From the NCBI RefSeq assembly GCF_000311725.1, contig NZ_HE978512.1, positions 386,293-450,292 on the forward strand: a DNA stretch of 64,000 bases, given 5' to 3'. The position numbers and the translations under genes are program-made. Positions 3,865-15,742 of the stretch are shown here, piece by piece; within the stretch, counting starts at the first letter, position 1, and every line of letters begins with the position of its first letter. This stretch comes from Robertmurraya massiliosenegalensis JC6 (lineage in GTDB: Bacteria; Bacillota; Bacilli; Bacillales; Cytobacillaceae). The notes beneath the pieces are model-generated. The model was not told the origin of the DNA and ran no database searches. It worked only from the letters and a program-made list of their open reading frames with translations.

Positions 3865-3985
3865 ATTGCGGGGGTTTTAGCGATGATTGCGGCTGTTCTG
3901 CGCTTTATTGCGGGGATTTTGGCAATAATTGCGGGGATTCTTCGGCTTATTGCGGGTGTTTCCAGGAGAATTGCGGATCTGCGTT
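3865..3985 (+). repeat. ATTGCGGG array 1 (six 21-bp units)
   Basis: The core ATTGCGG recurs at 3865, 3886, 3907, 3928, 3949 and 3970, exactly 21 bases apart. The other 14 bases of each unit vary, often as xxTTTTxGC. The last unit is distinct: ATTGCGGATCTGC. Two further arrays with the same unit length, count and terminal unit lie at 14389 and 15623. Because 21 is a multiple of three, the array can be read as heptapeptides (IAGxLxx on plus, PAI-type on minus), but no gene signals accompany it. Function unknown. Confidence 0.92.
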
Positions 3986-4104
3986 ATTTCTACAGATTCC
4001 GTTCTGGAATTTTCTATAAAATTTGTGTTCTTTCTTGGGATTGCGGTGCTTTCGTACATGATTTCGCAGCTCTCGGAACTTATTGCACATCAACTAATAA
4101 CTGG

Positions 4105-4131
4105 TTGGAAGCTAGTTCAAGTAGCTTCCAA
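4105..4131. repeat. Perfect 10-bp inverted repeat
   Basis: TTGGAAGCTA and TAGCTTCCAA separated by 7 bases, just beyond the atp terminator. There is no U-tract on either side, so it is not an obvious terminator. Confidence 0.7.
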
Positions 4132-4152
4132 TGGTTCTCTCGCTAATTCCTC

Positions 4153-4193
4153 AAAAAAACACCCTCCGGCTATTTATAACCGAAAGGTGTTTA
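4153..4193 (-). terminator. Rho-independent terminator of the atp operon
   Basis: On the minus strand the arms AAACACC(TTTCGG) and (CCGGAG)GGTGTTT form a hairpin immediately after the atpC stop, followed by a T run. Confidence 0.85.
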
Positions 4194-4202
4194 GTATCTT
4201 TA

Positions 4203-4604
4203 TTATTTGCCTGCAATCGTGATACGGTTGATGGCTCTTTGTAAGGCAAGTTCAGCACGTTTAAAATCAACATGTTCTTGCTTTTGTGCATGTAAACGTT
4301 GTTCTGCACGTTCTTTCGCTTTCATTGCACGTTCAACATCGATGTGATCAGAAACTTCAGCAGACTCTGCCAAGATAGATACTTGATCAGGCCTTACTTC
4401 GAGTAAGCCTCCACTCACTGCAATGTACTTTGTATTTCCACCCGTGATTAAACGGACGGCTCCTATTTGTAACGGTGCAACCATTGGAATGTGTCCTGGT
4501 AAAATCCCAAGCTCACCGCTTAGAGCTTTTGTACTGACCATTTCCACATCTGATTCATACACCGGGCCATCGGGAGTAACAACACTGACTTTAATCGTCT
4601 TCAT
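4203..4604 (-). CDS. atpC: F1-ATP synthase epsilon subunit
   Basis: 133 aa, normal length. Central-stalk subunit linking gamma to the c-ring and able to inhibit ATP hydrolysis. The N-terminal beta-sandwich shows [16 protein letters not shown] and [16 protein letters not shown]; the C-terminal helical hairpin ends [14 protein letters not shown]. Last gene of the operon, directly before the terminator, 22 bases after atpD. Confidence 0.97.
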
Positions 4605-14280: not shown

Positions 14281-14388
14281 GAAAACACCCTCTTTTTTCA
14301 CTAGATTGTTCTGAATGAGTGTGGAGTATGCATGAGAGATTGGGTTTTCGTGGCTAGGTTGGCGTTTTTTAGGTGGCCTGTTCGTTTG

Positions 14389-14508
14389 ATTGCGGGGGAT
14401 TTGGCCTGGATTGCGGGTGTTTCAAGCTGGATTGCGGGTAACCTACGATTAATTGCGGGAGTTCTGACCATAATTGCGGGTAATTTAATGGTTATTGCGG
14501 ATCTGCAA
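14389..14508 (+). repeat. ATTGCGGG array 2 (six 21-bp units)
   Basis: Cores at 14389, 14410, 14431, 14452, 14473 and 14494, exactly 21 bases apart, ending with the special unit ATTGCGGATCTGC. Units 1-5 and the core of unit 6 are almost identical to array 3 on the other side of the NERD gene. Located about 110 bases upstream of the protease start and just beyond the 3' end of the NERD gene. Confidence 0.93.
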
Positions 14509-14550
14509 CATACTGAGAAAATCAATTACTACTATTTGGTGGTATGGAAT

Positions 14551-15498
14551 TCACCAATGGTAGTTCGCATTTTTCGTCTTTCCGGATTGTTTTAGTTTCA
14601 TTCTTAATAGAAGTTCACGGACTACATGTCTGGACGGTAGATGAAGAAAGTTTCGACACTGCTGATTGGTAATGGTTTCTCCAAACAAATATAAGTAATC
14701 TTCCACCGCTTTTTTATAAGCAGTTTTTGAAGAAGAATGACACTTAAGACATTCCCAAGTTCCAAAATGATAACTCATGGGAATGGAGTGACATTTCGGG
14801 CATTGGACACCATCTCTTATCTCCGATTTTTGCAGGTTATAGATTTCAAAAACATCCTGCTTTAATGGAGTATGACCTTTAATTATTGTCTTCGTTAGAC
14901 GTTTATAATCTTTTTCACAAATTGATTGCTTATACTGATCTTCAAATGTTTTTACTTTGGAAGGCAGATGTTCGGCATGGAAAACTTTTTGGTAGATTTT
15001 TTCTTCATTGGATTTGATTAGCGTTGCGGGGTTGCTGATAACTGCGTAGCATTCGATTGGGAGAATCGGGAGTTTGCGTTCGAGAATCCATTTTTTCAAT
15101 TGTATCTGATGCCTTTCTGCTTGGATGATCGGATTTGGAAAGCCCTCTTCAACTTCATTAATGGTCCTCGTAAATTGTTTGGAATATTTTTCAAAATATA
15201 AGGTTCCAATCATATTCTTCGTTTCTAAACTGAGGAAAAAGTAAGGCGATACGACTAGACTATCAATCTGAAACGTTTGACCATATTTGGTTTTGAGGCG
15301 AATATCGTGGATTATATCATACTTATCAGGTAGAAACGTAAGATGATAGGATACATTTTGTTCGCCGCGTAACCCAGCTTTTCGCTTTGCTTGATCATCC
15401 ATAATAGCTTGTATTTCGGGATGTCCTTCAGGTAACCTCCTAAGCAGCGCATCATTTTGCATAATCCTAAAGGGAATATCTCTTTCTTTTAATATCAT
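14551..15498 (-). CDS. NERD-domain protein with C-terminal zinc ribbon
   Basis: 315 aa. The NERD (nuclease-related) domain covers about residues 38-150: RKAGLRGEQNVSYHL with Glu46, QIDSLVVSP with Asp79, LETKN with Glu92 and Lys94, and NPIIQAERHQIQLKKWI with Gln126. These match the endonuclease-like active-site pattern. A C-terminal zinc ribbon has Cys233-x2-Cys236 and Cys250-x2-Cys253 (CPKCHS...WECLKC). No membrane segment. The RBS AAGGAGTG is 11 bases before the ATG. NERD proteins are uncharacterised; DNA processing is inferred. The gene stands alone between two near-identical ATTGCGGG arrays and breaks the atp-wecB-upp synteny, suggesting acquisition. Confidence 0.9.
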   Translation of the reverse strand: MILKERDIPFRIMQNDALLRRLPEGHPEIQAIMDDQAKRKAGLRGEQNVSYHLTFLPDKYDIIHDIRLKTKYGQTFQIDSLVVSPYFFLSLETKNMIGTLYFEKYSKQFTRTINEVEEGFPNPIIQAERHQIQLKKWILERKLPILPIECYAVISNPATLIKSNEEKIYQKVFHAEHLPSKVKTFEDQYKQSICEKDYKRLTKTIIKGHTPLKQDVFEIYNLQKSEIRDGVQCPKCHSIPMSYHFGTWECLKCHSSSKTAYKKAVEDYLYLFGETITNQQCRNFLHLPSRHVVRELLLRMKLKQSGKTKNANYHW

Positions 15499-15622
15499 AA
15501 TAGGTTTTTCACTCCTTATTTTAGATTTAATAGTGAAATTCTCTTGTTATTGCTGTTCTCCTGCCACGGAACTGTGAACAATTTGCGAATTAGGAGTAAA
15601 TGTTGACTGTCTATTATGAAGG

Positions 15623-15742
15623 ATTGCGGGGGATTTAGCCTGAATTGCGGGTGTTTCAAGCTGGATTGCGGGTAACCTACGATTAATTGCGGGAGTTCTG
15701 ACCATAATTGCGGGTAATTTAATGGTTATTGCGGATCTTGTA
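15623..15742 (+). repeat. ATTGCGGG array 3 (six 21-bp units)
   Basis: Cores at 15623, 15644, 15665, 15686, 15707 and 15728. By eye, over the ~116 bases shared with array 2 there are two differences, both in unit 1 (G to A). Similarity stops right after the terminal ATTGCGGATCT, so the array itself is the unit of homology. Located 125 bases upstream of the NERD start. Confidence 0.93.

Follow-up and report, generated by a model that had tools for sequence, protein, structure and literature searches.

In a 64,000-nucleotide stretch of the Robertmurraya massiliosenegalensis JC6 genome (contig NZ_HE978512.1, positions 386,293 to 450,292 of the forward strand; hereafter the window), we analyzed three tandem arrays of ATTGCGG units, two of which lie on either side of a gene encoding a protein with a NERD nuclease domain. 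Sequence comparison leads us to propose, with a probability of roughly 0.7, that these arrays are platforms on which a cognate DNA-binding nuclease of the NERD family docks cooperatively. The narrower claim, that the NERD protein and the arrays form a cognate pair, appears highly probable. Linkage of NERD genes to arrays, core-specific pairing, concerted core switching and array polarity are supported by comparison, as is the copying of arrays from the NERD locus, the latter in one family and two related genomes.

Arrays and NERD gene in the window

Array 1 (3865-3981, + strand) lies in the gap downstream of a gene that we take, from its open reading frame (ORF) and the gene order, to be atpC. 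Array 2 (14389-14505, +) lies 46 bp beyond the NERD stop codon, and array 3 (15623-15739, +) 125 bp upstream of its start. As the original prediction had described from the letters alone, each array comprises six exact ATTGCGG cores at a pitch of 21 bp and closes with a common last unit, ATTGCGGATCT. The spacers had also been described as conserved between arrays 2 and 3, and this was borne out; up to ATCT they differ at two positions, both within unit 1, and their flanking DNA seems unrelated by eye. The window contains 19 core pairs at 21 bp (two or fewer mismatches) versus a mean of 0.42 and a maximum of 2 in 100 dinucleotide shuffles, so the pairs are not due to chance.

The gene between arrays 2 and 3 (14551-15498, - strand) encodes 315 amino acids and is the candidate cognate partner. 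Its product matches PF08378 (E 1.7e-22; 80.5 bits, with a gathering score of 22.1) and retains the conserved acidic and lysine residues of NERD proteins. Pfam, alignment and predicted structure place a PD-(D/E)XK-like NERD nuclease domain at residues 29-174 (14977-15414, -), in which E46, D79 and K94 are invariant among 83 homologues and E92 is present in at least 90%; we presume these four residues to be catalytic. The domain is followed by a zinc ribbon at residues 228-257 (14728-14817, -; C233, C236 and C253 invariant, C250 in at least 90%) and by a C-terminal winged helix at residues 258-315 (14554-14727, -), the candidate reader of the core, with its recognition helix at about residues 290-299. 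All 83 aligned members match PF08378; what the array-linked family adds to it is the C4 zinc ribbon and the winged helix. A structure model of the window protein had a mean predicted local distance difference test (pLDDT) score of 96.0, and its fold neighbours were PD-(D/E)XK nucleases and winged helices, with Can2, McrBC and NucC among them. A sequence search of the PDB returned seven matches (E 0.007-0.065), all to influenza haemagglutinin, which were taken as chance.

NERD genes are linked to arrays

Among Bacillaceae and relatives, an array was present within 500 bp of 70 of 96 distinct intact NERD homologues, versus three of 10 broken or truncated genes (p = 0.01). This count derives from 118 loci after removal of 12 duplicates; at six remote homologues outside the 118 (L104-L109), two of them cut by contig ends, arrays were found in none. 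Of the upstream arrays, 43 of 56 were at 78-208 bp from the gene, and of the downstream arrays, 27 of 31 were at 10-102 bp. A GTDB scan yielded 41 NERD loci, mostly from Bacillaceae by record title, in which 16 of 26 NERD genes had an array within 500 bp, as compared with 4 of 92 for the remaining ORFs (200 codons or longer) at the same loci (p = 7e-10). The array density in this set was 0.885 per kb within 500 bp but 0.026 per kb at distances above 1.5 kb, and the detector made no detections on 320,000 shuffled bases.

The atpC results described below were used to select 25 genomes from the window's family, and NERD matches were present in 22 of them, with one to nine in each (E 1e-20, fragments and remote matches counted). 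From these 85 matches 70 loci were fetched; the remaining 15 comprised three broken or truncated genes (E 3e-80 to 6e-66) and twelve matches at 2e-48 or weaker. Within the window's genus, nine of 10 fetched loci had an array, the exception being a broken gene. Distant NERD paralogues in the genus were flanked by arrays with other cores, each NERD lineage having its own. The NERD region of one record, titled Bacillus methanolicus DE0196 (L070), is that of a genus genome (G004), and its label may be wrong.

Arrays and NERD genes share a core within a genome

ATTGCGG arrays, searched by an exact triple-core pattern, were present in three of seven genus genomes, the same three that possess an intact orthologue of the window's NERD gene; by that pattern the four genomes without an intact orthologue, one of which has a broken copy, had none. 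In two other genus genomes the orthologues, at 81% identity, are intact and flanked by ATTGCGG arrays, and the window protein and its 81% orthologue share both the core and the helix SRHVVRELLLRM.

An independent sample was provided by atpC, homologues of which were found in 60 of 61 genomes searched. An array lies beside atpC in 10 of 30 genomes, from several genera and with differing cores, perhaps because a strongly transcribed operon makes this flank a recurrent site; since it is a frequent array site in itself, we used it as a blind sample and not as a null. Nine of these arrays were found independently of NERD, and eight of them have a 7-mer core in common with an array flanking a NERD gene of their own genome, versus 2 of 214 comparisons with other genera. 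Outside the window's genus, 7 of 7 match their own genome's NERD-flanking core. The ninth array is decayed and matches at six bases. The tenth (L062) was left out of the test because its contig position makes it the array that flanks that genome's own NERD gene. At this locus (L062/L169, G034:C16) the NERD gene (298171-299106) lies directly downstream of atpC (297153-297548), with a four-unit CGCGGAT array in between.

A second core, TCGCGG, was searched in 186 genomes of the window's family. At least four matches were found in 27, of which we examined 19 (five known before and 14 picked from the richer ones). A locus, fetched as the gene plus 1-1.5 kb, was scored as TCGCGG-flanked when at least three adjacent pairs occurred anywhere in it. 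By this measure a TCGCGG-flanked NERD gene was present in 14 of the 19 array-rich genomes versus 0 of 22 array-free genomes (p = 3e-7); three genomes with one to three matches, one of them positive, were left out of this table. In the 14 newly examined genomes, 10 had a single TCGCGG-flanked NERD locus out of one to six loci each. These 14 genomes held 52 NERD matches, of which 50 were read and 38 had an array, a count that was not deduplicated and is separate from the 70 of 96 given above.

Core switching and the winged helix

Two genomes titled Cytobacillus gottheilii have NERD-side arrays with the cores TATTCGCC and TATCCGCC. They differ at the fourth core base: in one genome all 12 units of the two NERD-side arrays have T there, and in the other all 11 units have C, and by eye the spacers are homologous unit by unit. 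The two NERD proteins have 34 differences, 13 of them among the 26 C-terminal residues (p = 1e-7; this stretch was delimited post hoc). A comparable switch was seen in a second genus. In one of its species the core is TATAGCG in 7 of 7 units at the NERD locus and 6 of 6 at atpC, and three relatives have TATTGGCG in nearly all units at both places; at either place the terminal unit has retained its spacer. In one C. gottheilii record (L086) the NERD-flanking array block occurs twice (~6981-7450 and ~9529-9980), one copy beside N, which is either a duplication or a misassembly.

We also compared the winged helices of 76 proteins, near-duplicates included; the pairs are not independent. At matched identity elsewhere in the protein, winged-helix identity was 0.67 for same-core pairs (6 pairs) versus 0.50 for different-core pairs (52 pairs); in a second matched bin the values were 0.71 (18 pairs) and 0.58 (13 pairs). 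These comparisons make the C-terminal winged helix the probable main reader of the core.

Proposed mechanism

In the model that we favour, the partner of the ATTGCGG arrays would be encoded at 14551-15498 (-), and its C-terminal winged helix would read the 7-8 bp core. The original prediction had expected a cooperatively binding protein on one face of the DNA, and the NERD protein, which co-varies with the cores, lends support to that expectation as the candidate. With a pitch of two helical turns, about six protomers may sit on one DNA face, and their stacking would bring nuclease and zinc-ribbon domains side by side. Arrays adjacent to NERD genes would be parental and probably autoregulatory, and dispersed arrays would derive from the NERD locus by copying and stay in register with the specificity of the protein, their terminal unit facing a gene 3' end and often a terminator. 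The bound protein stack would most likely be a polar barrier to read-through transcription, and the nuclease would act on whatever stalls there; this role at gene ends is put forward only tentatively. Binding itself, six-fold stacking, autoregulation, the barrier role and any cleavage are what we infer from the comparisons.

The chances seem about even that we are dealing with an undescribed two-part system, widespread in Bacillaceae, in which a winged-helix NERD nuclease docks roughly six-fold on arrays of fixed polarity behind operon 3' ends and in which both parts of the code switch jointly. If this were true, the 20-21 nucleotide repeats described below would be explained, and a natural, re-programmable protein-DNA code would be legible from genomes. 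A published repeat class previously without a partner protein or testable mechanism would gain a candidate through the link to NERD, and the recognizable reading domain makes array function directly testable. The natural core switches would also provide matched variants of protein and DNA from which the site choice of winged helices could be learned.

A number of observations weigh against this proposal. Of the 96 intact NERD genes, 26 have no detected array. A TCGCGG-flanked NERD gene was missing from 5 of the 19 TCGCGG-rich genomes, and in one of the 14 that had it the gene is broken (L227). Arrays with the core TATCGG occur in 7 of 7 genus genomes, and a TATCGG-flanked NERD gene was seen in only four, two of the other three genomes being about 80% complete. 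A rule relaxed to six bases fits all nine atpC-side arrays, yet it also fits 22 of 629 array comparisons in other genera. Genomes and protein pairs are related, so the p-values given here are too small. The structure matches of the NERD model have only middling Z scores. The C-terminal clustering of differences in C. gottheilii could partly stem from recombination there, given that the 3' end of the gene moves together with arrays. Recognition helices compared across the TATTGGCG/TATAGCG switch retain 54-85% identity, and two loci with different cores (L218 and L221) have 11 of 13 helix residues alike, so parts besides the recognition helix must contribute. Below 0.55 identity, same-core and different-core pairs hardly differ. 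Finally, the array polarity described below reached only 5 of 8 in siralis-type genomes.

Array architecture across the genome

The window's genome contains 13 ATTGCGG arrays, grouped by eye, and the strictly fixed architecture of six units at 21 bp that had been claimed from the window did not extend to them. Ten comprise six units, one of these ten including a decayed unit; two comprise eight, with a decayed unit apiece, and the remaining array has five. In three arrays the decayed units were identified by eye in the flanking sequence. All 62 counted steps (of 20 or 21 bp) were 21 bp. One array, read by eye, has steps of 20 and 22 bp around a decayed unit, and orthologous arrays of two related genomes include a 20-bp step. 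A sister family has a pitch of 20 bp (64 of 67 steps) and another is mixed (21 bp in 40 of 59 steps, 20 bp in 19). Since other unit numbers and steps occur, six units and 21 bp are the mode and not a fixed rule.

The last unit was far more constant, being ATTGCGGAT in 11 of the 13 arrays and ATGGCGGAT and ATTGCGGCT in one each, both a single base off the common form. Nine of the 13 arrays were compared unit by unit, the three with other unit numbers and one of the pair 14389/15623 being omitted. Unit types alternate in these arrays, with a similarity of 0.52 at even and 0.42 at odd distance, and units at the same position are more alike than others (0.524 versus 0.482, reached by 3 of 1000 permutations), a difference for which the alternation alone may account in part. 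With its constant last unit, unit alternation and position-specific units, an ATTGCGG array looks like a single element that starts and ends at set units, and not like a free-running repeat.

One genome carries the four array families ATTGCGG, ATTGCGY, ATTCCG and TATCGG. In the window, the ATTCCG family is represented by an array of six units with a pitch of 20/21 bp at 48999-49108 (+). ATTGCGY arrays, with C or T after the core, were seen on the opposite strand at two loci (L013, ~14160-14353, nine units; L014, ~5440-5567, six units detected), and are possibly a relic or sister of the ATTGCGG family.

Dispersed arrays and possible selfish spread

The presumed NERD gene of the ATTCCG family is found at another place in the genome (G000:C1:119953-120897), and an ATTCCG array follows its matched coding end at a distance of 10 bp. 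In two related genomes, one titled Robertmurraya siralis, nine dispersed ATTCCG arrays were picked for a shared array sequence, and nine of nine start with a stretch of about 33 bp that is homologous to the 3' end of the ATTCCG-type NERD gene and keeps the register seen at the gene itself. The nine include orthologous pairs and represent at least four distinct sites. Because they carry the 3' end of the NERD gene, these arrays were copied from the NERD locus. In the window's genome, inspection by eye revealed no NERD tail before ATTCCG, ATTGCGG or TATCGG arrays.

The arrays of the window had been noted to face one way, which is true, and the rule proved to be local. Among arrays of three families in the window's genome, 34 have a callable ORF on the terminal-unit side, and in 33 of these that ORF is directed at the array, ORFs being called by length alone. 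In a lax scan a terminator faced the terminal end in 20 of 36 arrays and the other end in 10 of 36, with a fraction of 0.10-0.15 in shuffled sequence; in a strict scan the values were 14 of 36 and 4 of 36. Polarity with respect to the replication strand was rejected as the whole story, since arrays on either contig strand follow the local ORF.

Copying also suits an explanation without host function, in which the NERD nuclease would be a mobilizer and the arrays non-autonomous mobile repeats, as with repetitive extragenic palindromic (REP) elements and their transposase. The nuclease would copy array-bearing ends behind terminators, and the arrays would decay after loss of the gene. The NERD 3' end carried by dispersed arrays, the near-identical arrays in unrelated flanks and the one to nine NERD matches found in 22 of the 25 genomes (fragments and remote ones included) are all consistent with this, as is a single ATTCCG array in each of two genomes with no ATTCCG-flanked NERD gene among the loci read. 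In-place core switching with kept spacers, however, would be unexpected if arrays spread only by copying, and the recurrence of arrays at atpC (10 of 30 loci, spread over several genera and differing in core) suggests retention. No clean empty site emerged when the atpC gap was aligned between five genus genomes, and a search with the siralis-type locus returned further copies of the array element with no interpretable empty site; no target duplication was seen. We regard selfish dispersal as a serious, if somewhat less than even, prospect.

Other explanations

An anti-phage system, in which the nuclease would be held on host arrays and released or activated on infection, seems unlikely. The fold neighbours of the NERD protein include CRISPR-ancillary and restriction nucleases (Can2, McrBC, NucC), and NERD domains are named in defence papers. 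The NCBIfam MAD6 model also matches, at 28.4 bits and far under its cut-off of 460. PADLOC, on the other hand, gave no meaningful match, the best being Csm2 (E 0.0078 over 25 residues).

The arrays might instead serve another protein, such as a nucleoid-associated or terminator factor, with NERD adjacency arising from shared insertion sites. Nucleoid stabilization is among the proposals in the main text of PMC8161180, and the polarity toward gene 3' ends would be in keeping with such a factor. Shared insertion sites would, however, leave the core-specific NERD pairing and the winged-helix co-variation unexplained, and we consider this explanation unlikely as well.

Transcribed small RNAs, also suggested in that main text, or a structured RNA are very improbable. 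The mean fold z-score of 31 arrays was -1.79, and the first and last bases of the unit pair more often than in shuffles (z 4.6-6.6). The complement nevertheless folds equally well (z -1.67), as an imperfect DNA palindrome would, and the co-variation is with a DNA-binding domain. No Rfam model matched at the arrays at the gathering score, and an Rfam RNA was rejected; the only such match in the window is an L31 ribosomal protein leader elsewhere (31513-31544, -; RF03156).

Translated heptapeptide repeats, for which open frames of 81, 94 and 97 amino acids running across array 1 on the plus strand might speak, can be rejected as a general explanation, because sister families of the same architecture have 20-bp units that keep no reading frame (64 of 67 steps). 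The conserved synonymous bases of the core are no argument here, since the arrays were found by their core. The original view of the arrays as non-coding is supported as the most likely. Nine of the 13 ATTGCGG arrays are free of ORFs of at least 90 codons, and the ORFs of ~95-133 codons that overlap the other four are taken as spurious; the 97-residue ORF overlapping array 1 is putative.

Relation to published repeats and comparable systems

The original prediction knew no name for the ATTGCGG family; the class to which it belongs is already published. The main text of Subirana and Messeguer (2021; PMC8161180) describes Bacillus tandem repeats of 20-21 nucleotides that are constant in length and variable in sequence, with a short conserved signal (TCGCGG in B. 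weihaiensis), few units, a generally non-coding location, species specificity and unknown function. The authors remark there that the repeat length equals two helical turns, and suggest protein polymerization on DNA, small RNAs or nucleoid stabilization. The arrays studied here resemble these repeats in length, small unit number, mostly non-coding location and in forming species-specific families that have a conserved short signal. The window arrays have at least four repeats of 20-21 nucleotides, with constant length, several sequence families per genome and a location outside protein-coding genes, as seen in 9 of 13 arrays.

That main text contains no word that starts with nuclease, NERD, transpos or flank, and the sections covered mention no partner gene, polarity, defined terminal unit or co-variation; the supplements and conclusions might do so. 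A literature search on NERD (including PMC12802215, which reports a NERD gene near upp in B. methanolicus, and PMC10910872) gave no link of NERD to tandem repeats in the parts of these sources covered; a 2020 J. Bacteriol. paper was outside its scope. Within that scope the nuclease-array pairing appears to be new; the repeats themselves are already published.

The system also resembles REPtrons, in which, as described in the part of PMC8266576 consulted, a TnpA-REP/RAYT gene is flanked by a cognate dispersed repeat that co-evolves with the protein. The NERD gene is likewise flanked by a cognate repeat dispersed in the genome. RAYTs, as that part of the source has them, are HUH transposases acting on palindromic single-stranded REPs, whereas the present system has a PD-(D/E)XK-like NERD nuclease with a winged helix and direct arrays of six units. 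In five members, NERD was the only domain to pass the Pfam cut-off, with no HUH/Y1 transposase partner, and the direct arrays have no palindrome after a conserved motif; their symmetry is partial, a complete 5-bp arm being formed by 3-16% of units when G-T pairs are counted. Roadblock terminators with arrayed factor sites, such as TTF-I at the Sal boxes, are similar in having tandem sites beyond gene ends, the barrier role of the NERD arrays being a proposal only; they differ in that TTF-I has no homology to the NERD system.

Other features of the window

Immediately after array 3, the segment 15755-15815 is GC-rich and ends in a run of C followed by A; it stands out from the adjacent DNA and may have arisen as an artefact of sequencing or assembly. 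Three copies of a 127-bp tandem repeat occupy 6060-6439, in and around the gap separating two ATP synthase genes. At 1297-2499 (-), an ORF that we take to encode an NADH dehydrogenase subunit has a long Ala/Lys-rich N-terminal repeat with a period of 39 amino acids (117 bp, about three copies).

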